Positions 15,225-62,880 of a stretch of 64,000 bases of DNA are shown piece by piece. Every line of letters begins with the position of its first letter. The stretch's first letter is position 1. Source of the stretch: Comamonas testosteroni TK102 (GTDB lineage: Bacteria; Pseudomonadota; Gammaproteobacteria; Burkholderiales; Burkholderiaceae_C); assembly GCF_000739375.1 (NCBI RefSeq), contig NZ_CP006704.1, positions 5,642,001 through 5,706,000 on the forward strand, given 5' to 3'. Under the pieces are notes generated by a model. That model had not been told where the DNA came from. It saw nothing but the letters and a program-made list of their open reading frames with translations, and made no database searches. Both the position numbers and the translations under genes were made by a program.

Positions 15225-15240
15225 GTCTCTACTCTGGCAG

Positions 15241-16606: not shown

Positions 16607-16609
16607 AGC

Positions 16610-17599: not shown

Positions 17600-17646
17600 A
17601 AATTCCCTCTTCTTACTGGGCCTCAAGGAGCAAGGCTTTATCGTTT

Positions 17647-47786: not shown

Positions 47787-47825
47787 AGCTCCGGTCCAGA
47801 ACGCAATGTTTGAGAAAGCCAGCTT

Positions 47826-47925
47826 TCGCAAGGAACAGCGAGCAAGGGCCTACGCCGGCCGCGCCGCCCCGCAGCGAGGCTGTCGTCCTCCTTGAGGGGG
47901 GAAGGCGCGAAGCGACTCAGGGAGT
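47826..47925 (-). repeat. Dispersed intergenic repeat, copy B (reversed)
   Basis: Read on the minus strand: CTGAGTCGCTTCGCGCCTTC, a C-rich then G-rich inverted pair, GGACGACAGCCTCGCTGCGG and, after a short variable stretch, CCCTTGCTCGCTGTTCCTTG. It agrees almost base for base with copy A at both ends. It lies between urtB and urtC, within the operon. Confidence 0.75.
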
Positions 47926-49539
47926 TCATGTTTCCGCACTGCGGCCCTTCAGGGCAAAAATGCCTTGCGGACGCTTTTGAATGAAGACCACGATGAACAG
48001 CAGCACGGCGATCTTGGCCAGCACTGCCCCGGTCCAGCCTTCCAGCAGCTTGCTGAGCACGCCCAGGCCCAGAGCCGCGTAGACGGTGCCAGCCAACTGC
48101 CCCACGCCGCCCAGCACCACCACCAGGAAACTGTCCACGATGTAGTTCTGCCCCAGATCCGGGCCCACATTGCCGATCTGACTCAGGGCGCAGCCGGCAA
48201 GACCAGCGATACCGGAGCCCAGTGCAAACGCATAGGTGTCGGTGCGTGCCGTGTTGACGCCGACACAGGAGGCCATGGCGCGGTTCTGCGTCACGCCGCG
48301 CACGAACAGGCCCAGCCGCGTTCTGGCGATCATGAAGGCCACGCCCGCCAGCACGGCAAACGCAAAGACGATGATGGCGATGCGGTTCCAGGGCAGTGTG
48401 AGATTGGGCAGCAGCGCAATCCCGCCGCTCATCCAGACGGGGTTTTCCACACCCACGTTCTGCGCCCCGAAAAGGCTGCGCACGGTTTGCTGCAGCACCA
48501 GGCTGATGCCGAAGGTGGCCAGCAGGGTCTCCAGCGGGCGACCGTAGAGAAAGCGGATCACGCCGCGCTCCAGCACCGCACCGACCAACGCCGAGGCCAG
48601 AAAGGCCACGGGAACGGCCACCACCAGATACCAGCCGAACAGGGACTCGGGCAGCCAGCGCTGGAATGCGACCTGCACCAGATAGGTCGCATAGGCACCG
48701 ATCATGATCAGCTCGCCGTGCGCCATATTGATAACGCCCATCAGGCCATAAGTGATGGCCAGACCCAGCGCCGCCAGCAACAGCACCGAGCCCAGGCTGA
48801 TGCCGCTGAAAATCGCCCCCAGCCTGTCGCCCCAGGCCAGGCCTTCGGCAATGCCGGCCAGCGCGGCCTTGATGGCTTTCTGCACGCCGGGATCGGACTC
48901 TTCGGACAGGCGCTGGTTCAACAGCAGCTGCGTCTCCGGCGTCTGCTGGCGCGACAGCTGCTCCACCGCCTTCAGACGCTGCTGCACCTCGTCGCTGCCC
49001 AGCAGGCTGGCAGCCTGGCTGCGCTCCAGCAGAGCTCTGACCTGCCCGTCCTGTTCAGCGGCCAGCGCTTTTTCGATCAGCGGAAGCCGCCCGGCATCAG
49101 GCTCGGAGGCCAGTTGCTCGGCAGCCTTGCGGCGCGCCTGCACATCGCTGCTGCCCAACGCCAGCGCGGCCTGCGCCGTGTCGATGACCGAGCGCAGGTA
49201 ATTGTTGCTGACGACCTCCTCGGCATCCGCCGGGAGTTGGACGGCCTGGCCGGTCACCGGGTCGGTGACCGCGTCGCCGCTCATTACATAGACCTTGCCC
49301 TGGGACACGCGCACTTCATCGTTGGCGAGCGCGCCCAGATAGGCCGACAGGCGGCCGCCGTCGGTCTGTGCATCCGGCGCCAGCACGGCCTGATTGATCG
49401 CCAGCACGCGCTGCTCGGAGTCGTCTGCCGCAGCCATGGCATAGGCCTGCTCGGTCGTCAGTGCGTGACTGGCAAAGCTCAGCAACGAGCCCAGCCCGGC
49501 GGCCAATGCCAGCCTCAATGACTTGCGCAGTATGTTCAT
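47926..49539 (-). CDS. urtB: Urea ABC transporter permease UrtB
   Basis: A 537-residue LivH-type permease with the long N-terminal extension typical of UrtB. A signal-like segment (LRLALAAGLGSLLSFASHALT) is followed by ~220 residues of helical, Ala/Leu/Gln-rich periplasmic sequence, including two related stretches (SSDVQARRKAAEQLASEPD and SDEVQQRLKAVEQLSRQQT). The membrane part has LAITYGLMGVINMAHGELIMIGAYATYLVQ, ETLLATFGISLVLQQTVRSLFGAQNVGVENP and NRAMASCVGVNTARTDTYAFALGSGIAGLAGCALSQIGNVGPDLGQNYIVDSFLVVVLGGVGQL. It matches the usual family layout. Confidence 0.96.
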   Translation of the reverse strand: MNILRKSLRLALAAGLGSLLSFASHALTTEQAYAMAAADDSEQRVLAINQAVLAPDAQTDGGRLSAYLGALANDEVRVSQGKVYVMSGDAVTDPVTGQAVQLPADAEEVVSNNYLRSVIDTAQAALALGSSDVQARRKAAEQLASEPDAGRLPLIEKALAAEQDGQVRALLERSQAASLLGSDEVQQRLKAVEQLSRQQTPETQLLLNQRLSEESDPGVQKAIKAALAGIAEGLAWGDRLGAIFSGISLGSVLLLAALGLAITYGLMGVINMAHGELIMIGAYATYLVQVAFQRWLPESLFGWYLVVAVPVAFLASALVGAVLERGVIRFLYGRPLETLLATFGISLVLQQTVRSLFGAQNVGVENPVWMSGGIALLPNLTLPWNRIAIIVFAFAVLAGVAFMIARTRLGLFVRGVTQNRAMASCVGVNTARTDTYAFALGSGIAGLAGCALSQIGNVGPDLGQNYIVDSFLVVVLGGVGQLAGTVYAALGLGVLSKLLEGWTGAVLAKIAVLLFIVVFIQKRPQGIFALKGRSAET

Positions 49540-49580
49540 AGGAATTTCAGGTTTCTAGCGCTGCAGCCCTTGTCAATAAA

Positions 49581-49594
49581 GCGCAAGCAGCTAT
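49581..49594 (+). repeat. Short dispersed repeat GCGCAAGCAGCTAT
   Basis: An exact 14-base match to the copies at 45502-45515 and 5533-5546, here in the urtA-urtB gap and preceded by AATAAA. Confidence 0.7.
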
Positions 49595-49601
49595 CTCTTC
49601 A

Positions 49602-49633
49602 GGACTGGAGAGCCCACCAGACCTCTCCAGTCC
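49602..49633 (-). promoter_or_regulatory. 11-base-pair stem-loop between urtA and urtB
   Basis: GGACTGGAGAG (49602-49612) pairs perfectly with CTCTCCAGTCC (49623-49633) across a ten-base loop, starting 11 bases after the urtA stop. No T-run follows, so it is not a classical terminator. Stable hairpins after a binding-protein gene often protect its mRNA end and allow more receptor than permease; that role is inferred. Confidence 0.7.
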
Positions 49634-49644
49634 GAGGGAGCGAA

Positions 49645-50913
49645 TCAGGAGCTCTTGCCGTTGGGCTCATCCTTCTTCTTGTCGTTGCCTTCGATATACG
49701 GGCTCCAGGGCTGGGCCTTGATCGGGCCCTTGGTCTTCCAGACCACGCTGAACTGGCCGTCTGCCTTGATCTCGCCGACCATCACGGGCTTGTGCAGATG
49801 GTGGTTCTTCTCGTCCATCTTCAGGGTGAAGCCGCTGGGTGCGGCAAAGGTCTGGCCGGCCATGGCGGCAATCACCTTGTCGGTATCCGTGCTCTTGGCT
49901 TTTTCCACGGCCTGCTTCCACATGTGGATGCCAACCCAGGTGGCTTCCATCGGGTCGTTGGTCAGCGGCTTGTCCTTGTGGCCGGCGATGTTCTTGGCCT
50001 TGGCGTAATCGCCCCACTGCTTGATGAAGGCCGTGTTGGTCGGGTTCTTCACACTCATGAAGTAGTTCCATGCCGCCAGGTGACCGACCAGAGGCTTGGT
50101 GTCCACGCCGCGCAGCTCTTCCTCACCCACGCTGAAGGCCACCACCGGCACGTCCTTGGCCTTGAGGCCGGCATTGCCCAGCTCCTTGTAGAAGGGCACG
50201 TTGGAGTCGCCGTTGATGGTCGAGATCACGGCGGTCTTGCCACCGGTGGAGAACTTCTTCACATCGGCCACGATGGTCTGGTAGTCGCTGTGGCCGAAGG
50301 GAGTGTAGGTTTCCATGATGTCGGAATCCTTCACGCCCTTGGACTTGAGGAAGGCACGCAGAATCTTGTTGGTGGTGCGTGGGTACACATAGTCCGTGCC
50401 CAGCAGCACAAAGCGCTTGGCACCGCCGCCTTCCTTGCTCATCAGGTACTCGACAGCGGGAATCGCCTGCTGGTTGGGCGCGGCACCGGTGTAGAAGACG
50501 TTCTTGGAGAGTTCCTCGCCCTCGTACTGCACGGGGTAGAACAGCAGACCGTTGTTCTGCTCGAACACCGGCAGCACGGATTTGCGCGACACGCTGGTCC
50601 AGCAGCCGAAGACCACGGCCACCTTGTCCTGGGTGATCAGCTGTTTGGCTTTTTCGGCAAACAGCGGCCAGTTGGAGGCGGGGTCCACCACCACGGGCTC
50701 CAGCTTCTTGCCCATCACGCCGCCCTTGGCGTTGATGTCGTCGATGGCCATCAGCACCGTGTCCTTGAGCACGGTCTCCGAGATCGCCATGGTGCCCGAG
50801 AGGCTGTGCAGCACCCCGACCTTGATGGTGTCTGCAGCCAGCACCTGAGAAGTCAACCCCAGGCCCAGAGCCATGGATGCAGCCAGTGTTGTGAGGGTTC
50901 CGCGACGATTCAT
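49645..50913 (-). CDS. urtA: Urea ABC transporter substrate-binding protein UrtA
   Basis: A 422-residue periplasmic urea receptor (LivJ fold). The signal peptide ends near TSQVLAADTIKVGVLHSLSGTMAISETVLKDTVLMAIDDINAKGGVMGKKLEPVVVDPASNWPLFAEKA, a highly typical UrtA start. Later motifs include VFGCWTSVSRKSVLPVFEQNNGLLFYPVQYEGEE, YTGAAPNQQAIPAVEYL, FVLLGTDYVYPRTTNKIL and DPMEATWVGIHMWKQAVEKA. The ATG at 50913 is used, with GGGAG upstream. A sigma-54 promoter lies 53-68 bases before the start, so nitrogen control is expected. Confidence 0.97.
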   Translation of the reverse strand: MNRRGTLTTLAASMALGLGLTSQVLAADTIKVGVLHSLSGTMAISETVLKDTVLMAIDDINAKGGVMGKKLEPVVVDPASNWPLFAEKAKQLITQDKVAVVFGCWTSVSRKSVLPVFEQNNGLLFYPVQYEGEELSKNVFYTGAAPNQQAIPAVEYLMSKEGGGAKRFVLLGTDYVYPRTTNKILRAFLKSKGVKDSDIMETYTPFGHSDYQTIVADVKKFSTGGKTAVISTINGDSNVPFYKELGNAGLKAKDVPVVAFSVGEEELRGVDTKPLVGHLAAWNYFMSVKNPTNTAFIKQWGDYAKAKNIAGHKDKPLTNDPMEATWVGIHMWKQAVEKAKSTDTDKVIAAMAGQTFAAPSGFTLKMDEKNHHLHKPVMVGEIKADGQFSVVWKTKGPIKAQPWSPYIEGNDKKKDEPNGKSS

Positions 50914-50965
50914 TTCAGCACTCCCAGGAGGTTTTGTTCGGTCACATTGACCGCAGAACCTGAAG

Positions 50966-50981
50966 TGCAATTACCGTGCCA
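50966..50981 (-). promoter_or_regulatory. Sigma-54 promoter of the urtABCDE operon
   Basis: On the minus strand TGGCACGGTAATTGCA, a complete match to the consensus TGGCACG-N4-TTGCW with GG and GC exactly ten bases apart. Predicted start of transcription is near 50955, leaving a leader of about 42 bases before urtA. Confidence 0.85.
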
Positions 50982-51162: not shown

Positions 51163-52557
51163 TCAGTCGGTCGGGATGCAGGCCGGCAGCGCTGCGCTGC
51201 GCAGCTTTCCGGGATTGAGCAGATTCAGGGGGTCGAAATCGGCCTTGGTCTGCAACAGCGCGGGATCGAGCTGGTTGTTGGCCTTGCCGTCTTCCACCAC
51301 GTAGACATGCGGATTGTTGATCTGCACGCCATGCTTGCGATAGATGTCCATGATCGCGTTGAGCCGCTCGGCCGAGCTGAAGCGCACCAGCTCCAGCCCG
51401 CTGCAGTTGAACTGTCCCTCCTTGGTGCGCAGAAACTCCAGATGGAACAGGACCTCGTCACCGAGCTCGCTGCGCAAGGCCTTGAGCTGCTCGCCAAACC
51501 TTGCGGGGTTGTAGCCGGTCTGCAGATAGGTCAGCTCCCGGTCCAGCTTCAGCGCATGCAGGGTCGTATGGTTCCAGCAATACTCGATCAGCGATTTGTA
51601 GCCCGCAGCCGGCTGCGCAGACCAGCGCCCGCGCTCGCAGTAGCTGAGGGTGCCGCCGTGACGCTCCAGCAATAGCTGCATGGCCTCCTCGGCTTCGGGT
51701 GCCACCAGCGCGATGACCGCGTGGCAGCCCGGGGGCAGATGCTCGGCCAGACTGGTGAAATAGGCCGGCACCGGAGCCGCCACCAGGCTCAGCTCCTTCT
51801 TGCGGATGCCAGGAGCATTGCCCAGCTGCTGCGCAAAGCCCAGCGCCTCGTCAAAACCCGTGAACGTGGCAATGCATTCCGTCCAGTTCGTAGCATCTGC
51901 CAGCGCCACTTCGAGCTCGAGCACGATGCCGGTCGTGCCATAGGTATGGTGCAGACGCATGGCATCGGCACCGCGCAGTTCCAGAATGCGGGGCTCGGCC
52001 TCCACCGTCATCACGCGCGCAGCCAGCACATTGCCCGCAGAGGCGAGCGGCCCGTAGGTGATGGAGCCGGCACCGCCGAAGCCTCCGCCGAACAGTCCGC
52101 CCAGGGTGGCGCTGCGATAGGTGGACGGCAGCCAGCGCAGCTCCTGCCCCTGCTCGCGCGCCAGCTGGTCAAAGTCCGCCAGACGTATGCCGGCCTGTGC
52201 CCGGCCCACACTGCCGCGCACCCAGCACAGGCTGTTGTAGCCGCTCAGATCCAGGATCAGGCCGCCGTGCAGCGGCGTGCTCTGGCCGTAGTTGCCGGTG
52301 CCGCTGCCGCGCAGCGTGATGGGAACGCCCCGACGCGCGCAATGGGCCACGACCTGGGCAATCTCGGCCTCGGTGCGCGGACGCACCGCAATGTCGCCGC
52401 GCTTGCCCTGCAGGGCCTGCTTCAGAACCGGACTGAACCAGGAAAAATCCTGGGACAGGCGCGACACTTTCAGGGAGTCGGTGATCCAGTCCAGCGCAGG
52501 CAAGACGCTGGCCAGCTGGCTGCTGTTCTCGGCAATCGAATGGGTGTTCATGGTCAT
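51163..52557 (-). CDS. FAD-binding oxidase/dehydrogenase (FAD_binding_4 family)
   Basis: A 464-residue flavoprotein of the glycolate/D-lactate dehydrogenase type. The PP-loop FAD domain is visible as DIAVRPRTEAEIAQVVAHCARRGVPITLRGSGTGNYGQSTPLHGGLILDLSGYN near residue 55, then WLPSTYRSATLGGLFGGGFGGAGSITYG and HTYGTTGIVLELEVAL. The C-terminus ends with NNQLDPALLQTKADFDPLNLLNPGKL, the usual family ending. It is the last gene of the minus-strand nine-gene run, 85 bases after the ABC permease. It probably oxidises a hydroxy acid or amine-derived product of that pathway. Starts at 52557 and 52551 are equally possible. Confidence 0.88.
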   Translation of the reverse strand: MTMNTHSIAENSSQLASVLPALDWITDSLKVSRLSQDFSWFSPVLKQALQGKRGDIAVRPRTEAEIAQVVAHCARRGVPITLRGSGTGNYGQSTPLHGGLILDLSGYNSLCWVRGSVGRAQAGIRLADFDQLAREQGQELRWLPSTYRSATLGGLFGGGFGGAGSITYGPLASAGNVLAARVMTVEAEPRILELRGADAMRLHHTYGTTGIVLELEVALADATNWTECIATFTGFDEALGFAQQLGNAPGIRKKELSLVAAPVPAYFTSLAEHLPPGCHAVIALVAPEAEEAMQLLLERHGGTLSYCERGRWSAQPAAGYKSLIEYCWNHTTLHALKLDRELTYLQTGYNPARFGEQLKALRSELGDEVLFHLEFLRTKEGQFNCSGLELVRFSSAERLNAIMDIYRKHGVQINNPHVYVVEDGKANNQLDPALLQTKADFDPLNLLNPGKLRSAALPACIPTD

Positions 52558-52642
52558 GGCGCAAAAAAACAAGGCGTGAGTCGGCCCATATGCCGCGCAG
52601 TGCGGGCATGACGGGAGCAGAAATGAGCAAAGGGGTAAAGCG

Positions 52643-53548
52643 CTAGTCGCTACCGGATTCGCTGGCATGCCAGCCGCCCAGCGCCCGGCGTGTGCACCAG
52701 GCCATGAGCACGAACAGCGCCACGCCGGTCAGCGAAATCAGCAGCAGTGCGGCGAACATGCGCGGGATGTTGAGCTGAAAGCCCGCTTGCAGGATCTGGT
52801 AGGCAAGACCCGCCCCCTGCCCGCCGGTTCCGGCAACAAACTCGGCCACCACGGCACCTATCAACGCCAGGCCGCTGGAGATGCGCAGCCCCCCGAAGAA
52901 ATAGGGCAAGGCACTGGGAATGCGCAAGCGCATCAGCACCTGCAGGCGCGTGGCCCGGTTGAGCTTGAAGTAGGCCAGCAGATCCGGCTCCACACTGCGC
53001 AGGCCCAGCGTGGTGTTGCTGATGATGGGAAACAGCGCCACCAGCGCCGCACAGATCACCATGGACAGCACCGGGTCCTTGACCCAGATGATGATCAGCG
53101 GCGCCACGGCCACGATAGGCGTCACCTGCAGCAGCACGGCATAGGGAAACAAGGCCGTCTCGATCAGCTTGCTCTGCACGAATACAAAGCTGATCAGGAC
53201 GCCCGCCACGGTGGCCAGGGCAAAGGCCAGCAAGGTGATCTTGACGGTGACCCACAGGGACAGGCCGAGTGCCACCCAGTCCGTCATCAGGGTCTGCAGC
53301 ATCAGCAGAGGCGAAGGCACCAGATAAGGCGGCAACTCCAGCCCCGTCACCAGGGCCTGCCAGACCAGCAGCAGCACAAGGCCCACCAGCGCCGGCAAAA
53401 GCACGCGCTGCACCTTGGGCTGAAGCAGCCAGGGGGTGGCCGCCTTGCCGGACTTGGCGGCAGCCACCGCACGCGCGCCGGTCGCGGCAGACCTGCTGTC
53501 GGCGGCCCTGGCCGCATCATCGGGAATGGAAGCGGGCAAGGCGCTCAT
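52643..53548 (-). CDS. ABC transporter permease (SsuC/TauC/ThiX-like)
   Basis: A 301-residue permease with about six membrane helices after a ~45-residue Ala-rich cytoplasmic start. It has the inner-membrane-component EAA-type loop near LLAYFKLNRATRLQVLMRLRIPSALPYFFGGLRISSGLALIGAVVAEFVAG. The family transports sulfonates, nitrate, pyrimidine and hydroxymethylpyrimidine precursors. The ATG at 53548 overlaps the ATPase stop by four bases and has GGAGGAGAG upstream. Confidence 0.93.
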   Translation of the reverse strand: MSALPASIPDDAARAADSRSAATGARAVAAAKSGKAATPWLLQPKVQRVLLPALVGLVLLLVWQALVTGLELPPYLVPSPLLMLQTLMTDWVALGLSLWVTVKITLLAFALATVAGVLISFVFVQSKLIETALFPYAVLLQVTPIVAVAPLIIIWVKDPVLSMVICAALVALFPIISNTTLGLRSVEPDLLAYFKLNRATRLQVLMRLRIPSALPYFFGGLRISSGLALIGAVVAEFVAGTGGQGAGLAYQILQAGFQLNIPRMFAALLLISLTGVALFVLMAWCTRRALGGWHASESGSD

Positions 53549-54357
53549 GACAGACTCTCCTCCACAATGGCACTGGCGCGCAGCAGGCTCGATTGCAACT
53601 GCTGCGCATGGCGGGCGAACTCGGGGCCGAGCATGAAATCGGCAGGCCGAGGATAGGGGGCATCGATGCGAAACTCCTCCACCACCCGTCCCGGCCTGGC
53701 CGCCATCATCACCACCCGGCTGGACAGAAAGACGGCCTCGTGGAGGGAGTGGGTGACAAAGATCACCGTCAGCTTCTTCTTGCTCCAAAGCTCCAACAAC
53801 TCCGCGTCCAGCTTGTGGCGCGTGATCTCGTCGAGCGCGCCGAAAGGCTCATCCATCAGCAGCAGATCGGGCTCGGTCACCAGGCCGCGGGCAATCGAGA
53901 CGCGCATCTGCATGCCTCCGGACAACTCGCGCGGCAGGGCCTTGGCAAAGCGTGCCAGACCCACCAGTTGCAGTGCCTCCGCGACGCGCGCATCGGCCTC
54001 TGCACGCGGCACACCAGCCAGATCCAGCGGCAGCCGCACATTGGTATGCACGCTGGACCAGGGCATGAGCGTGGGCTGCTGAAAGACAAACGCCATCTTC
54101 TTGCCGCCGGCCTGCAGCTGCGGCACCGGCTTGCGCCAGAGCAGCAGTCTGCCGTCGCTGGGCTCGAGCAGACCCGCAACCATCTTGAGCAAGGTGCTCT
54201 TGCCGCAGCCCGAGGGGCCGAGCAAGGTCACGAACTCCCCCTCTTCGATGCGCAGGTCGACGGGCAGCAGCGCCTGCGTGCCGCCGGGATAGGTTTTCTC
54301 TGCAGACAGCACCTCCACTGCGGGAATTGCTGCTGCGGGAATATCAGAGCCGCTCAT
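53545..54357 (-). CDS. ABC transporter ATP-binding protein (SsuB/TauB-like)
   Basis: A 270-residue ATPase: Walker A LLGPSGCGKSTLLKMVAGLL, Q-loop VFQQPTLMPWSSVHTN, signature LSGGMQMRVSIARGL, Walker B LLLMDEPFGALDEITR and the H-loop VTHSLHEAVFLSSRVVMM. It belongs to the nitrate/sulfonate/taurine class, which matches the permease and NMT1-like receptor encoded beside it. It starts 34 bases after the receptor gene. Confidence 0.95.
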   Translation of the reverse strand: MSGSDIPAAAIPAVEVLSAEKTYPGGTQALLPVDLRIEEGEFVTLLGPSGCGKSTLLKMVAGLLEPSDGRLLLWRKPVPQLQAGGKKMAFVFQQPTLMPWSSVHTNVRLPLDLAGVPRAEADARVAEALQLVGLARFAKALPRELSGGMQMRVSIARGLVTEPDLLLMDEPFGALDEITRHKLDAELLELWSKKKLTVIFVTHSLHEAVFLSSRVVMMAARPGRVVEEFRIDAPYPRPADFMLGPEFARHAQQLQSSLLRASAIVEESLS

Positions 54358-54391
54358 AGTTGCCTTTCGCTGCTGCTGCCAGCCCATGCCC

Positions 54392-55384
54392 TCAGGGCAG
54401 GACCTTGATGTTCTGAATCAGGCTCAGGTTGTAGGCATCGGCCTGCTTGACCTTGGCCGGATCGATCAGCTTGGCGCTGACCAGGAAGTCATAGCTGGCC
54501 TTGGCCCGCGCATCGGTCATCACGCCGATGCCCAGCTTGGCTGCATCTCCGCCGGCGACCATATTCATTTCCTTGAGCTTGCCCACGCTGTAGGCCAGCT
54601 GTTCGTCGGTCATGTTGGGGTTGTCTTTCTTGATCAGGGCATTGGCCGGCGCGGGATCGGCCAGATAGCTCTTCCAGCCTTCCATGGAGGCGGTGACAAA
54701 GGCCTGCACCGCCTTGCTGCGCTCCTTGATCGTCTTGTCCATGCAGGAGATGGTGGTCGCATAGGCCGGGAAGCCCTGATCGCTGAACATCAGCGTGTTC
54801 GCCTTGACGCCGGCCTTCTGAATCGCAAAGGGCTCGGAAGTCAGATAGCCTTGCTGGGCCGAGTTCTTGTCCACCAGGAACGGCTGGATATTGAAGGTAT
54901 AGGGCCGGGTCTGGGAGTCGGTGAAACCATATTTGGCCTTGAGCCAGGGCCAGTAGCCGCGCTGCGCGGAGGCGGCGATCAGAATGGTCTTGCCCTTGAG
55001 GTCCTCGAACCGCTTCACGTCCTCGTGAGCGATCAGCACCTGCGGATCCTTCTGGAACACCGCTGCCACCGTGGTCACGGGAACACCGCCCTCGCGCATC
55101 TGCACCATCTGCAGATCGCTGGAACCCATGACACAGTCGGCCTGACCGGCGGCCATCATCTGCGTGATATTGACCTGGGGGCCGCCCATCTTGATGCTGA
55201 CATCCAGGCCATGCCTTTTGTACAGCCCTGTGGCCACGGCCTGGTAGAAGCCGCCATGCTCGGCCTGGGCATACCAGTTGGTCATGTAGACGAATTTTTC
55301 CTCGGCATGGCCGAGGCCGCTCAGACCGCAGGCCAGCATGGCCGCGCAGGTCAGGGGTTTGAGGAGTTTGGCAGTCTTCATCAT
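54392..55384 (-). CDS. ABC transporter substrate-binding protein (NMT1/THI5-like)
   Basis: A 330-residue periplasmic receptor of the SsuA/NMT1 fold. The signal peptide ends near GLSGLGHAEEKFVYMTNWYAQAEHGGFYQAVATGLYKRHGLDVSIKMGGPQVNITQMMAAGQADCVMGSSD. The TNWYAQAEHGGFYQA stretch is that of THI5/NMT1-like receptors, which bind pyrimidines and related small heterocycles. This favours a heterocyclic nitrogen compound as the ligand, by inference. The ATG at 55384 follows CGGAGATCC. Confidence 0.92.
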   Translation of the reverse strand: MMKTAKLLKPLTCAAMLACGLSGLGHAEEKFVYMTNWYAQAEHGGFYQAVATGLYKRHGLDVSIKMGGPQVNITQMMAAGQADCVMGSSDLQMVQMREGGVPVTTVAAVFQKDPQVLIAHEDVKRFEDLKGKTILIAASAQRGYWPWLKAKYGFTDSQTRPYTFNIQPFLVDKNSAQQGYLTSEPFAIQKAGVKANTLMFSDQGFPAYATTISCMDKTIKERSKAVQAFVTASMEGWKSYLADPAPANALIKKDNPNMTDEQLAYSVGKLKEMNMVAGGDAAKLGIGVMTDARAKASYDFLVSAKLIDPAKVKQADAYNLSLIQNIKVLP

Positions 55385-55428
55385 GGCGGATCTCCGAAGG
55401 TTTGAAACAGGCAAGGCGTGGAAAGGCG

Positions 55429-56286
55429 TCAGGCCAGGGCAGGCTCCACATGCCCCTGATGCTGGGCCCGGCCCCAGGTGGCTTCGTCGCGGCTGGCCCA
55501 TTGCAGCTCGTGCAGCTCGGCAATGGCGGCGGCCCAGCTGCGGGCCAGGGATTGCAGAATCTCCTGCCCCTGCTCCGCAGTTGCGGGGGTCGGATCACCG
55601 ATCACGCCGCTGGGTCCGAAGTCCCGTGCGGTCCAGGCGCAGGCGGGACGGCCGTCGGGCGACAGCAGGCTGGAGGGGAACACGGGCGGATAGTTGATGA
55701 CGGCCCGCTCCATGTGCACGGTCTGCGGCGCCAGCGCCAGCATCAGCGCGGTCTCGGCATGGCCTGCATGCATGGCCAGCTTTTTCTCCAGGTTCGACAG
55801 GTACTGGCCTGCGACATGCGGCACGCGCCAGGTAAAGCTCGGCACCACGATGAAGTCGCCATGGCGCAGGCGCAGCTCGCGCGCCGCGATCTCCAGCACC
55901 TGGGGCTGGCCGCCGTGGCCGTTGACGAACAGCAGCTTGCGAAACCCTGCGCGATACACCGACTCGCCGATTTCATTGATCGTGGCCAGCAGGGTTTCAC
56001 CGCTCAAGGTCACCGTGCCGGGAAAGTGCAGATGCTCCTCCGACTTGCCATAGACGATGGGGGCCATGGCGAATGCAGGCACGGCAGCGGGCAGCTGCGC
56101 CATGGCGGCACCGACCACGCCCGCCGCAATCGTTGCGTCCACCGAGCAGGGCAGATGCGGGCCATGCTGCTCCATGGCGCCCACAGGCAGCACGATCACG
56201 GTATTGGCCTTGTCCGGCAGGGCCGCAACCTCAGTCCAGCTCAGATAGGGCAGAAAGCGGTCGGCAGGGGTGTATCCATGCAGCAT
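55429..56286 (-). CDS. Creatininase-family amidohydrolase
   Basis: A 285-residue enzyme of the creatininase family, which opens cyclic amides (creatinine) or hydrolyses formamides (ArfB, MftE). Metal and catalytic motifs are present: LPVGAMEQHGPHLPCSVDATIA near residue 33 (Glu, His, Asp), SEEHLHFPGTVTLSGETLL near 85, FVNGHGGQPQVL near 120 and HAGHAETALML near 175. Creatinine itself is only one possible substrate; the neighbours point to opening of a nitrogen ring or removal of formate/amide from its product. Confidence 0.92.
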   Translation of the reverse strand: MLHGYTPADRFLPYLSWTEVAALPDKANTVIVLPVGAMEQHGPHLPCSVDATIAAGVVGAAMAQLPAAVPAFAMAPIVYGKSEEHLHFPGTVTLSGETLLATINEIGESVYRAGFRKLLFVNGHGGQPQVLEIAARELRLRHGDFIVVPSFTWRVPHVAGQYLSNLEKKLAMHAGHAETALMLALAPQTVHMERAVINYPPVFPSSLLSPDGRPACAWTARDFGPSGVIGDPTPATAEQGQEILQSLARSWAAAIAELHELQWASRDEATWGRAQHQGHVEPALA

Positions 56287-56314
56287 GGGTTCTCCGGGGT
56301 GAGTGATGAATGGG

Positions 56315-56776
56315 TCAACGCAAGGGCAGATAGGCCGTGGCCTCCACCTCGATCAGAATGTCCGGCGTGGGCAACATGCCCGTCACCTCGACCACCGTGG
56401 AAGCCGGTGATTCGCCAGGAAAAAACAGCTTGCGTACACGGCTGTACTGCGGAAACTGGTCCAGATTGCGGAAGTACTGCACCAGCTTGAAGACATCCGA
56501 CATCTGGCCGCCGGCGGCCTCCACCGTCTGGCGAATGCGGTCCAGCACCCACCAGCTCTGTGCCAGGATGGGGCCCTCCTTGATATCGGTGCTGAATTCA
56601 CCGGTACGCCCGATCAGCGCCGCCGCTTCAGCAGGAATGTCGGCATAGCCACGCACGATGCGATTGGCCCCCGGGTCCACGGCGATCACGCCCGACAGGA
56701 ACACCAGATCGCCCGCCCGCCGCCAGGCCGCATAACGTGCCAGGGGCTGGGCAATGCCTGTGGTATCTGTGCTCAT
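56315..56776 (-). CDS. RidA/YjgF-family protein
   Basis: A 153-residue RidA-fold protein. RidA hydrolyses reactive enamines and imines; relatives such as RutC act on catabolic intermediates (3-aminoacrylate). Visible are GDLVFLSGVIAVDPGANRIVRGYADIPAEAAALIGRTGEFST, QSWWVLDRIRQTVEAAGGQMSDVFKLVQYFRNLDQFPQYSRVRKLFF and a final EVTGMLPTPDILIEVEATAYLP with the conserved Glu. It is slightly longer than plain RidA (~130). Its start overlaps the amidohydrolase stop (ATGA), so the two are coupled. Confidence 0.93.
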   Translation of the reverse strand: MSTDTTGIAQPLARYAAWRRAGDLVFLSGVIAVDPGANRIVRGYADIPAEAAALIGRTGEFSTDIKEGPILAQSWWVLDRIRQTVEAAGGQMSDVFKLVQYFRNLDQFPQYSRVRKLFFPGESPASTVVEVTGMLPTPDILIEVEATAYLPLR

Positions 56777-58068
56777 GCAACGCTCCGTTCAATGCAGGCT
56801 GTGAACCAGGCAGCCAGCGGCTCTCCGTTGCTGACGCGCCCCTCGCGCATCACCACACGGCGGTGGCTGCGGGATGGAAAGCCGCTGACGCCGGACTGAG
56901 GAAGGATCACCAGATCGGCTGTCGAGCCTGGCTGCAGCGGCATACGGCCGACACCATGACCCAGCCAATCGCGGCGACAGACGCTGTCGCTCCACTCGTC
57001 GAAGGCCGAAGTCAGCTGCGCGGCCGCCACTGCGGTACTGAGCGCCTCCAGCGGATCGAAACTGCCCAGCGGGCAGAAGGGGTCCTGCACGTTGTCGCTG
57101 GAGATCATCAGCGGTATGCCGCGCGCCCTGGCCTCCTTGACCAGCGTCAGACCTCGCTGCCGCGGCGTGACACCGGTTTGCGCGTCCTGCAGCAGCAGGT
57201 TCGTCACCGGCAGGCTGACCATGGTGATGGGAGTGCTGGCCACGGCATCCAGCGTGCGCAGCGCCTGCTCCAGCGGTTGCGCCGCCAGCGCGCAGGTATG
57301 GCCACAGACCACACGGCCTTCGAAGCGCAGTTCCTTGAGCAGCGCGGCCGTGGTGGCCAGTCCCTGGGCTGCGGGGTTAAGTTCCTCATCCACATGCAGG
57401 TCCACGTCCAGGCCGTGCTGCTGCGCAGCCTCAAGCAGATTGCACAAGGCCTGCGGGCTCCAGTTGGTGGAATGGACAAAGCCGCCGAGCAAGGCCCCCG
57501 CGCCACTGAGCGCCACCTGCTTGGCCAGACGCATCGCCACACCGCGCTCCTCATACAGATGCAGGGGAATCAGGCTGACGCGCTCGAGCAGCACACGCCC
57601 GGCCCATTCCTGCGCCAGCTCGCGCAGCACTTCCCAGGCCACGGGCACCGAGTCCGGCTCCCACCAGTCGCAATGGCTGCGTGCATGCGAAACACCGGCT
57701 TCATAGGCCCATTGCAGGCCCTGGCCCGCACGACGGCGCACATCGGCCGCCGTCCAGTTCTGCTTGTCCTCCATCATCGCCTCTATCGCTGCCAGCAGGC
57801 CCGGCTTCACGGGTCCCATGCGCTCCAGCGTGAACGCCTTGTCCAGATGCAGATGTGCGTCCACCATGGTCGGCAGCACCAGCGCTCCTTGCAGATCCCA
57901 TACCTGGGAGCCAAAGCTGCGCGGCAGGCCAGGAGCTTCGTCGGCTATGGCAGCAATGCGCCCGTTGGCGATTTCCAGGCGCGACAACGGCATCTCGCTG
58001 CGCTGTCCCAGGGCCGCGAGCAACCAGTGCGGCAGCCGTGCGTTGCAGAGAGTCAGATGTGAGGACAT
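56773..58068 (-). CDS. Cytosine-deaminase-like amidohydrolase
   Basis: A 431-residue metal-dependent amidohydrolase. Metal and catalytic motifs: VDAHLHLDKAFT near residue 66 (HxHLDK as in CodA and AtzC), SHARSHCDWW near 120, LDVDLHVDEELNPAAQG near 205, RVVCGHTCALA near 238 and LMISSDNVQDPFCPLGSFDPLEAL near 315 (Asp metal ligand). It resembles cytosine deaminase and N-isopropylammelide hydrolase, enzymes that remove amino groups from pyrimidine or triazine rings. The ATG at 58068 has GGAGAG eight bases upstream. A longer frame reaching 58446 is not plausible because it covers the next gene. Confidence 0.92.
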   Translation of the reverse strand: MSSHLTLCNARLPHWLLAALGQRSEMPLSRLEIANGRIAAIADEAPGLPRSFGSQVWDLQGALVLPTMVDAHLHLDKAFTLERMGPVKPGLLAAIEAMMEDKQNWTAADVRRRAGQGLQWAYEAGVSHARSHCDWWEPDSVPVAWEVLRELAQEWAGRVLLERVSLIPLHLYEERGVAMRLAKQVALSGAGALLGGFVHSTNWSPQALCNLLEAAQQHGLDVDLHVDEELNPAAQGLATTAALLKELRFEGRVVCGHTCALAAQPLEQALRTLDAVASTPITMVSLPVTNLLLQDAQTGVTPRQRGLTLVKEARARGIPLMISSDNVQDPFCPLGSFDPLEALSTAVAAAQLTSAFDEWSDSVCRRDWLGHGVGRMPLQPGSTADLVILPQSGVSGFPSRSHRRVVMREGRVSNGEPLAAWFTACIERSVA

Positions 58069-58079
58069 GGAGAGCTCTC

Positions 58080-58667
58080 CTAGGCAAAGCGGCGCATGGC
58101 CCGGCCGACATGGGCCTTGAAGGACTGCAGCCGAGATGGCGTGGCCACGTTCATGTGGTAGCAGGCGTGATAGTCGATACGCGCCTTGCCGCCCGTGAGA
58201 ATGCGCAGATAGCGCGTGATGCATTTGCGCGGAGGATCGCCCATGAACAGCGCGGTCCAGCGGGGACGCCCATAAGTCACCACCGCCGCAATGCGCTTGA
58301 GATGGGTCAGCGCCGGTTTGACGTGCTGCGGATCGCTGATGTCGAAGGCCACACCGGGCATCAGCACGCGATCGAAGAACCCCTTGAGCATGGCCGGCAG
58401 ACCGAAACACCAGGTCGGGAAGCAGAAGACTACGGCCTCGGCCCACAGCAGGCGGTCCACATAGCGCTGCACGGGCAGCCGGTTCTGCGGCACCTCGTGA
58501 TAGCCCAGGCGCTCCTCGCGGGACATCACGGGATTGAAGCCTTCCGCGTACAGGTCGCAGTCATCGACCTCATGCCCGGCGCCGCGCAACTGCTGTACCA
58601 CCTCGGCATGCAATGCGGCCTGATAGCTGGTTTCCACGGGATGGGAAAAGATCACAAGCACTCGCAT
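58080..58667 (-). CDS. NAD(P)H oxidoreductase, flavodoxin-2 fold
   Basis: A 195-residue flavoprotein of the NQO1/MdaB/KefF type. It starts MRVLVIFSHPVETSYQAALHAEVVQQLRGAGHEVDDCDLYAEGFNPVMS, with the SHP FMN/FAD phosphate loop, and has VVFCFPTWCFGLPAMLKGFFDRVLMPGVAF near residue 80. It could supply reduced flavin or electrons to an oxygenase. It lies between the ferredoxin and amidohydrolase genes, with gaps of 9 and 11 bases. Confidence 0.92.
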   Translation of the reverse strand: MRVLVIFSHPVETSYQAALHAEVVQQLRGAGHEVDDCDLYAEGFNPVMSREERLGYHEVPQNRLPVQRYVDRLLWAEAVVFCFPTWCFGLPAMLKGFFDRVLMPGVAFDISDPQHVKPALTHLKRIAAVVTYGRPRWTALFMGDPPRKCITRYLRILTGGKARIDYHACYHMNVATPSRLQSFKAHVGRAMRRFA

Positions 58668-58676
58668 GTCGACCCT

Positions 58677-58979
58677 TCAAAGATCCAGGGTCAGAGCTGC
58701 GCCGCGATTGCGTGCGCAGCACAAAGCCACATGCGTGCTGCGCTCCTCATCGGTCAGGCAGCGGTCATGGTGTTCGGGATCACCGGCCGTCCAGCGCGTG
58801 ACGCAAGTGCCGCAAATGCCTTGCTCGCACACCGTCTCTATGACCACACCGGCCAGTTGCAGCACATCGGTAATGCGCTCTGCGGGCTCCACCGGCAAGC
58901 GCAATCCCTGACGCAGCAATACCAGCTCAAAGCCTTGTTCTACGGGCGTTTCCAGAGTATCCGGGGCAGTGTTGGGCAT
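58677..58979 (-). CDS. 2Fe-2S ferredoxin (vanillate/phthalate reductase C-terminal type)
   Basis: A 100-residue plant-type ferredoxin. Cluster cysteines are in VIETVCEQGICGTCVTRW (C-x4-C-x2-C) and LCCARNRG further on. The sequence GDPEHHDRCLTDEER between them matches the ferredoxin domain of Rieske-oxygenase reductases (VanB, OphA1 type), here encoded without its flavin and NAD domains. No oxygenase gene is in the window, so its partner is unknown; the adjacent flavodoxin-fold reductase may feed it. It is the first gene of the nine-gene operon, behind a sigma-54 promoter and a RutR-like operator. Confidence 0.92.
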   Translation of the reverse strand: MPNTAPDTLETPVEQGFELVLLRQGLRLPVEPAERITDVLQLAGVVIETVCEQGICGTCVTRWTAGDPEHHDRCLTDEERSTHVALCCARNRGAALTLDL

Positions 58980-58981
58980 GA

Positions 58982-59010
58982 TTGACCATCCGATTTGATC
59001 GACTGGTCAA
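58982..59010. promoter_or_regulatory. RutR-type operator before the ferredoxin operon
   Basis: TTGATCGACTGGTCAA (58995-59010) matches 12 of the 14 specified bases of the RutR box TTGACCA-N2-TGGTCAA. The symmetry extends outward to ATTTGA...TCAAAT at 58993-59012. A second half-site, TTGACCA, lies at 58982-58988. The box covers the predicted start of transcription (near 59005), so binding should block the promoter. The RutR-like protein encoded just upstream is the obvious ligand. Confidence 0.75.
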
Positions 59011-59072: not shown

Positions 59073-59110
59073 TGCACCAGGCTTGCGCAGACCGTCTTCA
59101 AATTGGTGCC
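59073..59110. promoter_or_regulatory. NtrC-like box and half-site upstream of the ferredoxin operon
   Basis: TGCACCAGGCTTGCGCA (59073-59089) matches TGCACCA-N3-TGGTGCA at 12 of 14 specified bases. A half-site TGGTGCC follows at 59104-59110, within the 3' end of the TetR gene. They stand 40-80 bases upstream of the sigma-54 promoter. Confidence 0.65.
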
Positions 59111-59727
59111 AGACCACAGCTCAACAGCACGGAAGTGGTGAGCTCCCGGGCAATATGCTCGCGATCCAGCGGCTGGTCGTCGGCACACTCCAGCATGACC
59201 CTGGCCTGCACCGCATAGTCCGCATAGTGCTGGGTCATGCCCCAGATCTGCATCAGCAGCACGCGCGCATCGAGGCTGCGCATGCGGCCCTGCGCGATCC
59301 AGGCGTTGATCAGATCCACCTTCTGCGCCGTGGAACTCAGCGCGACAGGCCAGTATTGATGCAGACGCAAGCCCCCACCCAGCACCTCGTTGGTGAAGAT
59401 GCGCGACAGGGCCGGATTGTCCAGCGCATAGTCCAGCTTGCGCCGCACATAGTTGCCGATGATCTGCGCCGGATCGTCGAGTGCCGGATCGAACGCAAAA
59501 GCCGCAGACCAGGCCTCCAGCAGCGCATAGAGCAGCTCGTCATACAAGGCCTGTTTGCTCTCGATGTAGTAGTGCAGCTGGGGCTTGGTCAGGCCGGCTC
59601 TTTCCGCGATCGCCTGCGTGGATGCGCCCTTGAAGCCGTGGCTGCTGAACTCCGCAATCGCCGCATCGCGGATGGCTTGCAGAATCTGCTCTCGGGTGCG
59701 GCGGGCAACAGGCGTGGAATCGGTCAT
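59098..59727 (-). CDS. TetR-family regulator, RutR-like
   Basis: A 209-residue TetR repressor. The HTH is REQILQAIRDAAIAEFSSHGFKGASTQAIAERAGLTKPQLHYYIESKQALYDEL (residues ~12-65), followed by a YcdC/RutR-type C-terminal domain (NYVRRKLDYALDNPALSRIFTNEVLGGG, LINAWIAQGRMRSLDARVLLMQIWGMTQHYADYAVQARVML). TKPQLHYYIESK is the RutR-class recognition helix region. RutR itself binds uracil. This protein probably represses the ferredoxin operon through the operator at 58995-59010. An alternative start at 59775 overlaps the DUF4198 stop (TGATG), so it may also be read from the TonB unit. Confidence 0.9.
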   Translation of the reverse strand: MTDSTPVARRTREQILQAIRDAAIAEFSSHGFKGASTQAIAERAGLTKPQLHYYIESKQALYDELLYALLEAWSAAFAFDPALDDPAQIIGNYVRRKLDYALDNPALSRIFTNEVLGGGLRLHQYWPVALSSTAQKVDLINAWIAQGRMRSLDARVLLMQIWGMTQHYADYAVQARVMLECADDQPLDREHIARELTTSVLLSCGLAPI

Positions 59728-59774
59728 GGCAGCAGGCTGTGAAACGGATCTTGAACTGACGGAATGCGGCTTCA

Positions 59775-60506
59775 TCAATGCACGGCAAAGCGCAGCAGAT
59801 ACTCGTAGCTGTTCTCGGTGGTCCTGGGATCGCCATGCACAGGCTGACGCAGTATGGCCTGCAGCGTATTGCTGCCGACAGCTGGCGTCATGGTCGCCTG
59901 ACCCTGCGCGTCCGTCATCGTGGGAGAACCGTTCTCTCCCCAGGACAGTCTGACGCCAGGCTGCGGCTTGCCATGCAGCAACACCTGCAGCCTGAACGGC
60001 TGACCGGCATGGGGAGACTGCCCCTGCAGCGGCACCACCTCGAACATCTGACCCAGCGGCTTTTGCATGACAGCCCCCCAGCGCACCACGGTCTTGTGGA
60101 ACTTGCGTGCATGCACGCCGCGCACGGCACCGGGGTTCTGGTCGATGGGCAAAGGCAGCATGGCGCCCTCTTTCCCCGTACTGCTGAAATAGCCGTTATC
60201 GAGTTCCACAGCAATCAGCGCCGCCCTGGCATCGGGCTTGATGCGTATGCCGCCCTGCATATTCTGCACGGCGCTGGGCACTTCACGGCCGCGCAGGTCA
60301 TAGGCGTGTACACGCTGCAGCTTGGCCGGATCGAAGGCCTCTGTCCGGCCTTCATGACCGCCAAACTGCATGACATAGCCGCCCTGCGCATAGGGCTCCA
60401 GCCAGACGTTATCGGCAGAAGCCGGGTGGGCGCAGAGCAGCCAGGCAGCGGCCGTGGTGCACAGAATGCGGGCGATGATGTGGTGACGTGTCCTGCAAAC
60501 AGACAT
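59775..60506 (-). CDS. DUF4198 periplasmic protein, probable nickel-uptake component
   Basis: A 243-residue exported protein. The signal peptide ends near LLCAHPASADNVWLEPYAQGGYVMQFGGHEGRTEAFDPAKLQRVHAYDLRGRE, the DUF4198 (NikK-like) start with His near the mature N-terminus. The C-terminal part is an Ig-like domain (PFRLQVLLHGKPQPGVRLSWGENGSPTMTDAQGQATMTP). DUF4198 proteins accompany nickel and cobalt transporters and TonB receptors. Here it follows a TonB receptor by 15 bases and sits close to ureA, so a role in nickel delivery for urease is likely but inferred. Confidence 0.88.
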   Translation of the reverse strand: MSVCRTRHHIIARILCTTAAAWLLCAHPASADNVWLEPYAQGGYVMQFGGHEGRTEAFDPAKLQRVHAYDLRGREVPSAVQNMQGGIRIKPDARAALIAVELDNGYFSSTGKEGAMLPLPIDQNPGAVRGVHARKFHKTVVRWGAVMQKPLGQMFEVVPLQGQSPHAGQPFRLQVLLHGKPQPGVRLSWGENGSPTMTDAQGQATMTPAVGSNTLQAILRQPVHGDPRTTENSYEYLLRFAVH

Positions 60507-60521: not shown

Positions 60522-62576
60522 TCACAAGGAAAACTGCAGGCCCAGCTGCACGCTGCGCGGCGCGCCGGGCGCGACCAGACGCTGGCCGGCAATCATGGTG
60601 GTGGTACTGGCATAGCGGGTGTTGGCGGCGTTGCGCAGCCACAGGCTCAGGCTGGCATTGCGCGCCAGGCTTGCGGGCAAGCGGTATTGCAGGCCCAGGT
60701 CCAGCCAGCGATAGCTGCCTGCCCATTCGGTATTGCCGGTGTTGATGGGCGCGCGGCCCACATGGCGCAGCAATCCATGCACGGTGACATCGCTGCGCGG
60801 CATCCAGCGTGCATGCAAGGTGCTGGTGTACTCGGGCACGGCCACCACACGCCGGCCCAGCAATGCGCCATTCGCGTTCTGCGTGACTTCGGAGCGATTG
60901 TGGCCATAAGCCCATTCCACATGCCAGTTGCGACTGGGCAGCCAGTGCAGCTGCAGCTCGGCGCCCCTGCGTACGGTCGCTCCCAGATTTTCATACTCGC
61001 CAGGTGCTGTGTTGCGTATTTCATGGCTGGAGCTGATGCGATAGAGCGATGCATCGATCAGCCAATGGCCCGATGGCTTCCACTCCACGCCCAGCTCGCT
61101 CTGGCGAAAGATATTGGCATGCAGGTCGCTGTTGCGCAGCGCGTATTTGGCAAAGTCGCTGGGCAGCGCAAAGCCTTGCGACCAGCTGGCCCGCACGGCC
61201 GTGCGGGCATTGAGCTGCGCCAATGCTCCCAGCTTGGGGCTGGCATGGCTGCGGCCCAGCATGCGATTGCATTCATCGCCACCGGCCTCCTCGCCCAGCA
61301 GACGGCAGCGGCCGTCAAAGTGGTCCCAGCGCAGGGCCGCCGTGGTCTGCAACCAGGCCGTCGGCTGCCAGCCAGCCTGGCCGTAGATCGCCGTGTTGTC
61401 GAGCCGTGTATTGCGATCATTCAATGCAGGGCCGGTGCGCCGGCGGTCGAGCAATCCATCCCAGTAGCCATAGTCGGTGGACTCGCGCACCTGCTCCAGG
61501 CCCAGCATCCAGTTCAGCTCGCGCGCCGCCAGGCGGGACTTGCCGCTGACATTCAGCCCCGCTCCCAGCACGCTGCGGTCGTAGCGCTCCTCGCGCTGCA
61601 TCCAGGTGGCGCTGCGCGGGCGGGTGAACCAGCGCACAAAATCCTGCTGCGTGCCGTAGACAAAGCCCAGCAGCCGGGTCTCGGCATCCAGTGCGTACTG
61701 CGCATCCAGGCGCACCGTGCCAAAGTGCTTGTCGGCACCATCACCCGCCACACGGCTGTCCTTGCCCTGGGGATTCTGCCGCCATTGGGCTTCGGTCAGA
61801 TAGCCGGGCGAGTCGCCACGCGCCTCGTGCCAGCGACCGGACAGCGAGATATCGAGCTTTTCATGCACCTGGTGCTTCCAGGTACCGCTGATGGTGCTGC
61901 GCTCAAAGCCCGAACTGGGCCGGTTTCCATCTCCGCGCGAATGCTGGGCCGCCAGATTGAGCTGATCGCCCCCCTCCAGCCCACGCCCGAGTGCGGCCTG
62001 GGCATCGAACATGCCGTCCGAACCGGCGCTGACTTCGAGCTCCGTATAGCTGCCGCTGCGCCGCGTGCGCAGCTCCAGCAATCCGGCGCGGTTGTAATTG
62101 CCCTGCATCACCGACACGGGACCGCGATAGACATTGAGCTGATCCAGCTCCAGCGGCACCACCACATTGAGATCGAAATAGCCATCGGCATGCGACATGG
62201 CTTCGTTGAGCGGGATGCCATCCAGTGTGGCGGCCACATCGCCGCCATGGCCGCCGCCGCCAAAGCCGCGCATCACCAGCCCGTTGGCCACCCCGCTGAG
62301 CTGGTAGTGATTGACATGCATGCCGGGCACCAGACTCCACAGCGACTCCACTTCCTGTCTGGGCTGCTCGCGAATTTCGTCGCGCCTGAACTCGGTGACG
62401 GAAAACGCGCGCTGCGCCTCATCCAGTGCCTGCCCCTTGACCATGGCACTCACCTGCACCTCGGGCAATGTCTTGTCACCTTCCTGAACCGTCCTTGCCC
62501 ACACTGCGCCCGTACACAGGGAGACACATCCCCAGGTCAGCAAGCCCTGCCTTGCTGCAGCCTGCAAAAGCGGCAT
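60522..62576 (-). CDS. TonB-dependent outer-membrane receptor, probably for nickel
   Basis: A receptor of about 684 residues. Signal peptide MPLLQAAARQGLLTWGCVSLCTGAVWA, then a TonB-box-like stretch (TLPEVQVSAMVKGQ), the plug domain (FRRDEIREQPRQEVESLWSLVPGMHVNHYQLSGVANGLVMRGFGGGGHGGDVAATLDGIPLNEAMS, DQLNVYRGPVSVMQGNYNRAGLLEL) and a beta-barrel ending ...VAPGAPRSVQLGLQFSL with a terminal aromatic-rich strand. The ATG at 62576 is chosen because the sigma-54 promoter predicts a transcript beginning near 62606, on top of the earlier ATG at 62604-62606. Nickel as ligand is inferred from the DUF4198 partner and the divergent ureA. Confidence 0.9.
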   Translation of the reverse strand: MPLLQAAARQGLLTWGCVSLCTGAVWARTVQEGDKTLPEVQVSAMVKGQALDEAQRAFSVTEFRRDEIREQPRQEVESLWSLVPGMHVNHYQLSGVANGLVMRGFGGGGHGGDVAATLDGIPLNEAMSHADGYFDLNVVVPLELDQLNVYRGPVSVMQGNYNRAGLLELRTRRSGSYTELEVSAGSDGMFDAQAALGRGLEGGDQLNLAAQHSRGDGNRPSSGFERSTISGTWKHQVHEKLDISLSGRWHEARGDSPGYLTEAQWRQNPQGKDSRVAGDGADKHFGTVRLDAQYALDAETRLLGFVYGTQQDFVRWFTRPRSATWMQREERYDRSVLGAGLNVSGKSRLAARELNWMLGLEQVRESTDYGYWDGLLDRRRTGPALNDRNTRLDNTAIYGQAGWQPTAWLQTTAALRWDHFDGRCRLLGEEAGGDECNRMLGRSHASPKLGALAQLNARTAVRASWSQGFALPSDFAKYALRNSDLHANIFRQSELGVEWKPSGHWLIDASLYRISSSHEIRNTAPGEYENLGATVRRGAELQLHWLPSRNWHVEWAYGHNRSEVTQNANGALLGRRVVAVPEYTSTLHARWMPRSDVTVHGLLRHVGRAPINTGNTEWAGSYRWLDLGLQYRLPASLARNASLSLWLRNAANTRYASTTTMIAGQRLVAPGAPRSVQLGLQFSL

Positions 62577-62616
62577 GCCTTTTCTGTTCAATAGTCCTTG
62601 ATACATGCACCAGAAA

Positions 62617-62632
62617 AGCAAGGTCCGTGCCA
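62617..62632 (-). promoter_or_regulatory. Sigma-54 promoter of the TonB receptor-DUF4198 unit
   Basis: On the minus strand TGGCACGGACCTTGCT, a complete match to TGGCACG-N4-TTGCW with exact spacing. It predicts a start near 62606, which favours translation of the receptor from 62576. Confidence 0.82.
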
Positions 62633-62737
62633 CGCACTGCACCGTCATCGCCCCGCAATGCACCAAGAAGTGCCAGCCACGGCATCCAGGGAACGCCATG
62701 GTGCATATCCGCAAACCCAATGCACCAACAAGGTGCC
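62633..62737. promoter_or_regulatory. Cluster of NtrC-like boxes between the TonB receptor and ureA
   Basis: The best box is TGCACCAACAAGGTGCC (62721-62737), 12 of 14 specified bases of TGCACCA-N3-TGGTGCA. Further half-sites are TGCACC at 62637-62642, TGCACCA at 62659-62665 (followed by AGTGCC) and GGTGCA in ATGGTGCAT near 62700. Together they lie between two divergent sigma-54 promoters and could serve both. The rest of this 304-base gap between the two genes holds no coding sequence. Confidence 0.65.
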
Positions 62738-62784
62738 ATATCACAGCAACCCAGCCGCCATCCACCAGCAACAAGGGCTTGCCA

Positions 62785-62801
62785 TTGGCATAGCACTTGC
62801 T
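62785..62801 (+). promoter_or_regulatory. Sigma-54 promoter of the urease operon (ureA)
   Basis: TTGGCATAGCACTTGCT: GG at 62787-62788 and GC at 62799-62800, exactly ten bases between, with TTGGCA and TTGCT both conserved (mismatches only in the CG of the -24 element). Predicted start is near 62812, giving a ~70-base leader before ureA. Confidence 0.8.
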
Positions 62802-62880
62802 ACATAAAAGGGCATGAAACTCCCAGCGCGCGTTCTGCCGGTGCCACCGGCTGCGCGAGCTGACTGAGGGATTGAAGACG

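Follow-up and report, generated by a model that had tools for sequence, protein, structure and literature searches.

Nine adjoining genes on the minus strand of the Comamonas testosteroni TK102 genome (a single contig of 6.06 Mb, NZ_CP006704.1) form an operon which, judged from sequence comparisons, probably serves the catabolism of pterins or other pteridines. They occupy positions 51163-58979 of the 64-kb stretch analysed here (contig positions 5,642,001 to 5,706,000), which we call the window. In order of transcription they encode a ferredoxin, a flavodoxin-fold oxidoreductase, an amidohydrolase, a Rid-family protein, a creatininase-family hydrolase, an ABC importer, and an FAD flavoprotein. 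The importer is complete and of the NMT1 type throughout according to Pfam and NCBIfam profile scans, consisting of an NMT1/THI5-like substrate-binding protein (SBP; 54392-55384; NMT1, E 1.4e-31), an ATPase (53545-54357; ABC_tran, E 8e-34), and a permease (52643-53548; BPD_transp_1, E 9.5e-24). The open reading frames, read from the sequence, are separated by gaps of 9, 11, 28, 44, 34, and 85 bases, with four-base overlaps at amidohydrolase/Rid and ATPase/permease. This confirms the layout described in an earlier note on this DNA, and the families named there agree with Pfam: for all nine proteins the best match exceeds the family cut-off, in a scan that for four of the nine used start points slightly off those listed.

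The amidohydrolase (56773-58068, minus) is related to both pterin and cytosine deaminases, and we propose that it is a pterin-type deaminase. It is 38-39% identical over 358 residues to the likely Variovorax orthologs of pterin deaminase, and the metal site (H72, H74, H225, E228, H257, D325) is present in all 17 sequences that were aligned. The fold is nearest that of cytosine deaminase. Two residues with roles in the cytosine deaminase CodA, D314 and Q156, are nevertheless not matched: the place of D314 is taken by Asn in 17/17 sequences, and residues 167-170 (IPLH) fall at Q156 in the alignment. The NCBIfam cytosine deaminase model PRK07583 gives 315.1 bits against a cut-off of 403, while it fits a Rhizobium etli protein of the same gene set at 691 bits. 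Those of its relatives whose activity has been assayed work on pterins. Variovorax sp. F1, of the same bacterial family, breaks down folic acid via carboxypeptidase G and a pterin deaminase; in the text of that report degradation is followed as far as deaminopteroic acid, the further steps being inferred without enzymes, and in the main text the word "cluster" is absent and "operon" occurs in the reference list only (PMC9513972). Its deaminase belongs to a homologous group and has a Rid-type gene directly 3′, as in the window, and one locus of this group (L158) carries the remaining genes of the same set alongside; the window operon differs in holding another deaminase clade.

The second enzyme that points to pteridines is the FAD_binding_4 flavoprotein (51163-52557, minus). 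The structure closest to it is PDB 6V42, titled, in its depositors' wording, a flavin oxygenase of folate catabolism, and the full-length homology to the 6V42 family is clear, standing well above that to other FAD_binding_4 proteins. The GlcD equivalog is missed by a wide margin (54.7 bits, cut-off 567.9), which speaks against a glycolate or lactate oxidase; the idea that an FAD oxidase handles a hydroxy-acid product is therefore left without support. Our literature search found no paper describing the whole gene set. The statement in the earlier note that no described pathway has this set must still be qualified, because the 6V42 title and the Variovorax pterin deaminase already connect two of the enzymes, through their relatives, with folate or pterin catabolism.

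The gene set is conserved beyond chance. The amidohydrolase alignment was scanned against genome contigs, confirming 199 stretches, of which the best 80 were kept. In 73/80 loci the amidohydrolase is followed, on its own strand, by all five genes for the creatininase-family protein, SBP, ATPase, permease, and FAD protein; of the 70 loci with 6.5 kb or more of downstream sequence, 69 have all five, and only L106 does not, as it lacks the FAD gene. A flavodoxin gene precedes the amidohydrolase in 73/80; near it are also a Rid gene (46/80), tetR (66/80), and a ferredoxin gene (28/80). A search for the same gene order in other genomes, as had been suggested, thus finds these genes usually linked. 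The loci are not independent, since by record title 52 of the 80 come from Acidovorax or Variovorax and the remainder mostly from other Comamonadaceae or related metagenome-assembled genomes (MAGs); two are gammaproteobacterial (L042, Pantoea sp. 18069; L054, a MAG). The nearest named loci are from C. testosteroni, with an amidohydrolase 97% identical (L027). The set also occurs on Rahnella, Pantoea, and Klebsiella plasmids, on one Comamonadaceae plasmid, and on six alphaproteobacterial plasmids; in one of these six, from Agrobacterium CFBP6625, neither amidohydrolase nor flavodoxin turned up in the stretch. In Variovorax sp. WS11 the operon is carried by plasmid pVarWS11_iso (L056), a contig of Acidovorax sp. 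GW101-3H11 holds it as well (L052), and in one genome (G105, L159) most of it is doubled in tandem.

The flavodoxin-fold NAD(P)H oxidoreductase (58080-58667, minus; Flavodoxin_2, E 9.8e-31) is a putative flavin reductase. The 2Fe-2S ferredoxin (58677-58979, minus; Fer2, E 5.4e-9) resembles the C-terminal domain of VanB/PDR-type reductases and matches the C-terminus of the GbcB model (E 2.8e-7, far under the cut-off); in the enterobacterial loci a single full PDR/VanB reductase occupies the ferredoxin place and replaces both proteins. Rieske genes, whose products are possible ferredoxin partners, lie within the fetched stretch of 8/80 loci.

A further link to pterins comes from isoxanthopterin deaminase. 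Divergent to the operon, Klebsiella and Rahnella carry genes for an SBP, an amidohydrolase, and a 2-oxoglutarate (2OG) oxygenase, and that amidohydrolase matches PDB 2PAJ at 673 bits, an entry that we take to be isoxanthopterin deaminase. Orthologs (E 1e-80 or better) were found in 10 of the 150 genomes of the family sample, to which the co-occurrence counts below refer. Six of the ten loci (L151, L152, L154, L156, L157, L165) have an FAD gene nearby whose product is 54-61% identical to that of the window; L153 and L164 are on contigs shorter than 8 kb, and L155 and L166 have no FAD gene nearby. L151, L156, and L157 show the order permease - isoxanthopterin deaminase - FAD; five of the six loci from alphaproteobacteria show permease - amidohydrolase - FAD. 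L154 lacks an amidohydrolase in the interval from flavodoxin to creatininase and ends with a Rieske gene and isoxanthopterin deaminase. Isoxanthopterin deaminase thus lies in or beside the operon in some relatives and can fill the deaminase slot. Among the matches listed, both systems occur together on plasmids in three Klebsiella records (and in a fourth as judged from its FAD gene), in one Rahnella record, and in five Pantoea records, being far apart on the Pantoea plasmids (about 180 kb in BRR-3P, for example). The FAD clade (15 genomes) and isoxanthopterin deaminase (10) co-occur in 7 genomes (p 2e-6), and the FAD clade is present in 9/9 genomes having the operon amidohydrolase. Left out before these counts were a partial match (G074, ~299 residues, 53%), matches of 37-41% identity, and FAD matches of 38-43% identity. 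Amidohydrolases from environmental DNA deaminate isoxanthopterin and pterin-6-carboxylate, according to a review (PMC5270733).

Several points weigh against pteridines as the substrate. The p-values for co-occurrence take no account of common descent, and the line drawn between the clades was chosen after viewing the lists. Isoxanthopterin deaminase is not enriched with the operon amidohydrolase (2/9 genomes, p 0.11) or with the 2OG oxygenase (1/10, p 0.71). The window's genome has no ortholog of it (best match 39%), 2PAJ is not among the sequence matches of the window amidohydrolase, and orthologs occur in only 4/80 operon stretches, so isoxanthopterin deaminase was rejected as a universal partner. 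A fully supported split in the tree of 17 parts the window amidohydrolase from the Variovorax pterin deaminases, for which reason we file it as a relative, not a member, of that group (Arad3529/Variovorax F1 type). 6V42 and 6V43 belong to a clade separate from the betaproteobacterial-type FAD proteins, at about 39-44% identity (for 6V42, to the proteins of 73 loci), and our literature search found no paper on either entry. With both enzymes across such divisions, the substrate may therefore differ.

The remaining two enzymes are not what their family names suggest. Imine hydrolysis by Rid proteins requires an arginine that RidA and Rid1-3 retain and Rid4-7 lack (PMC4433059). The window Rid protein (56315-56776, minus; Ribonuc_L-PSP, E 1.9e-16) has Ser at this place, as do 59 of the 60 Rid genes that lie no more than 9 kb from operon genes, and the remaining one is truncated at a contig end; a 61st Rid gene in the loci, farther away, likewise has Ser. 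A RidA that clears an enamine or imine, as had been supposed, is thus unsupported. The creatininase-family hydrolase (55429-56286, minus; Creatininase, E 7.8e-74) scores 149.8 bits against MftE (cut-off 172) and 106.3 against creatininase TIGR04448 (cut-off 235), and has Gly-Gly after the metal His, where creatininase has the functional pair Tyr121-Glu122.

The pyrimidine pathway Rut of E. coli serves as the comparison system (PMC7662398). It parallels the operon in combining a flavin oxygenase and its separate reductase with an amide hydrolase, a Rid protein, and a RutR-type regulator. The operon differs in that its flavoprotein is of the FAD_binding_4 family, its hydrolase creatininase-like, and its Rid protein without the arginine. 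No RutA-, RutB-, or RutF-type protein was found among the nine operon proteins in profile scans, which for RutA and RutB covered these nine only. The Rid protein also misses the RutC equivalog (50.5 bits, cut-off 169.1), as the regulator misses RutR (128.2 bits, cut-off 368), and the operon is thus not a Rut system.

This regulator, a RutR-like TetR protein, is encoded upstream on the same strand (59098-59778, minus; TetR_C_3, E 1.9e-28). Between it and the operon lies a putative RutR-type operator (58995-59010, no strand assigned) with two mismatches to what we presume to be the RutR consensus. By itself the site is not significant, the 64 kb holding six matches at three or fewer mismatches, a number reached by 3/100 shuffles. 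Among the scored loci, which run to L089, 34/64 have a site at this threshold, equalled in 0-6% of 50 same-length control stretches, which were drawn from the same locus and could include the site itself. Relatives from Comamonas, Acidovorax, and Hydrogenophaga retain the site; in most scored Variovorax loci the best match has four mismatches and is equalled by many controls, L047, L056, and L071 being exceptions. A TonB-dependent receptor gene lies upstream of the regulator (60522-62972, minus); in Rahnella and Pantoea BRR-3P, TonB receptor genes come after the operon.

The operon is followed immediately by the urea importer genes urtC, urtB, and urtA (46557-50970, minus), urtA being the first (601.5 bits, cut-off 492.75). 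A urease alpha gene lies 0.9 kb beyond the window end, and ureD is within the fetched stretch of 18/80 relatives. These neighbours fit the release of urea; they could instead reflect shared nitrogen regulation.

The RutR-like regulator and its putative operator would also suit a nucleobase pathway, purine or pyrimidine and acting for instance on modified or oxidised bases, in which the regulator senses a pyrimidine and 2OG and CDA-type enzymes act in series. The cytosine-deaminase-like fold of the amidohydrolase points the same way, and so, at the expense of pteridines, do a 2OG oxygenase nearest thymine dioxygenase in 20/80 fetched stretches and a CDA-fold deaminase in 36/80. In the window's genome such a 2OG oxygenase is encoded roughly 210 kb away from the operon, accompanied by SBPs and a CDA-fold deaminase. 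The Asn at the D314 place and the activity of the tested relatives are at odds with this alternative, as is the fact that 11 of the 17 family genomes with a 2OG oxygenase ortholog have no operon amidohydrolase, and we consider it unlikely. Because of those 11 genomes the 2OG oxygenase could not be upheld as an obligate partner, although it is found in 6/9 operon genomes (p 6e-5). Added oxygenase genes, which the earlier note proposed looking for, do exist in these 20 and in the eight Rieske-bearing stretches; they may carry out hydroxylations that come earlier in the pathway, or form a nucleobase module of their own.

Other heterocycles fare worse. On two plasmid stretches (L021, pADP-1, 13947-15278; L023, 11947-13251) an amidohydrolase 52% identical to that of the window lies near atzD, atzG, atzE, and atzF, beside a BMP-type importer. 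The amidohydrolase alone is shared on these stretches, whose annotation lists neither FAD nor creatininase nor NMT1 genes, and no atz gene occurs in the annotated operon stretches (Comamonadaceae, enterobacterial, and alphaproteobacterial plasmids), leaving a triazine- or cyanurate-type pathway very improbable. We give equally little credence to another fused or vitamin heterocycle, such as flavin-derived lumichrome or the thiamin pyrimidine: the SBP resembles a formylaminopyrimidine-binding (ThiY-type) protein and THI5 structures, but weakly (E 8e-9 to 3e-5), and no further link of the operon to flavins or thiamin was found. Creatinine or N-methylhydantoin degradation would account for the creatininase family and for the name cytosine/creatinine deaminase that one source gives to some homologs; with the creatininase equivalog missed, and with neither hydantoinase nor sarcosine genes in the operon, it is scarcely credible.

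If the operon does act on pteridines, the importer would take up a pterin or another pteridine and the amidohydrolase would turn it into a lumazine by stripping off its 2-amino group. Next, the flavoprotein could oxygenate or cleave the deaminated ring, with reducing power from the flavodoxin-fold protein, and the creatininase-family enzyme may hydrolyse the exposed amide or ureide. Part of the nitrogen would leave as urea, in keeping with the adjoining urea-transport and urease genes, and the ferredoxin might feed an oxygenase encoded elsewhere, such as those of the Rieske genes near the operon in a few relatives. Of the pathway outlined in the earlier note, this keeps the conserved operon and an importer, deaminase, and amide hydrolase for a small nitrogen heterocycle, neither Rut nor creatinine; the roles assigned to the Rid protein and the FAD enzyme fall away. 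More speculatively, the ring might be opened in a Rut-like but unrelated manner, in which a flavin oxygenase with its own reductase cleaves, the creatininase-family protein hydrolyses, the arginine-less Rid protein performs a new reaction, and either isoxanthopterin deaminase or the operon deaminase serves, interchangeably, as the entry enzyme; this remains tentative, and we would not rely on it.

Elsewhere in the window are a row of Tad/Flp pilus genes (11583-17626, minus; T2SSF, T2SSE ATPase, a weak TadZ match, secretin, RcpC/CpaB) and a cytochrome P450 fused to a reductase (FAD_binding_6 and 2Fe-2S) in one protein (37833-40184, plus). No Rfam family matched anywhere in the 64 kb. The same genome holds, at 2.70 Mb (L142), 2OG oxygenases and a Rieske oxygenase with a PDR-type reductase and, on visual inspection, genes for alcohol dehydrogenase, esterase, and nucleobase permease, a cluster that may be a demethylating heterocycle pathway. 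At 1.49 Mb (L144) a single run comprises a 2OG oxygenase, an NMT1-type importer, a CDA-fold deaminase, and a split xanthine-dehydrogenase-like enzyme.

Automatic names such as cytosine deaminase, creatininase, RidA, and glycolate-oxidase-like are misleading for this gene set. Folates and pterins are very widespread, and little is known of what becomes of the pterin ring in soil; the Variovorax F1 report, the only genetic work on folate breakdown that our literature search turned up, asks if, and by what route, products of the deaminopteroic-acid stage are decomposed by bacteria (PMC9513972). The operon supplies candidate genes for the missing steps of folate degradation, namely a relative of pterin deaminase, a relative of the flavin oxygenase, and two further enzymes. 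Should the Rut-like ring opening prove true, it would be, as far as our literature search goes, the first genetic account of the bacterial mineralisation of the folate pterin ring.

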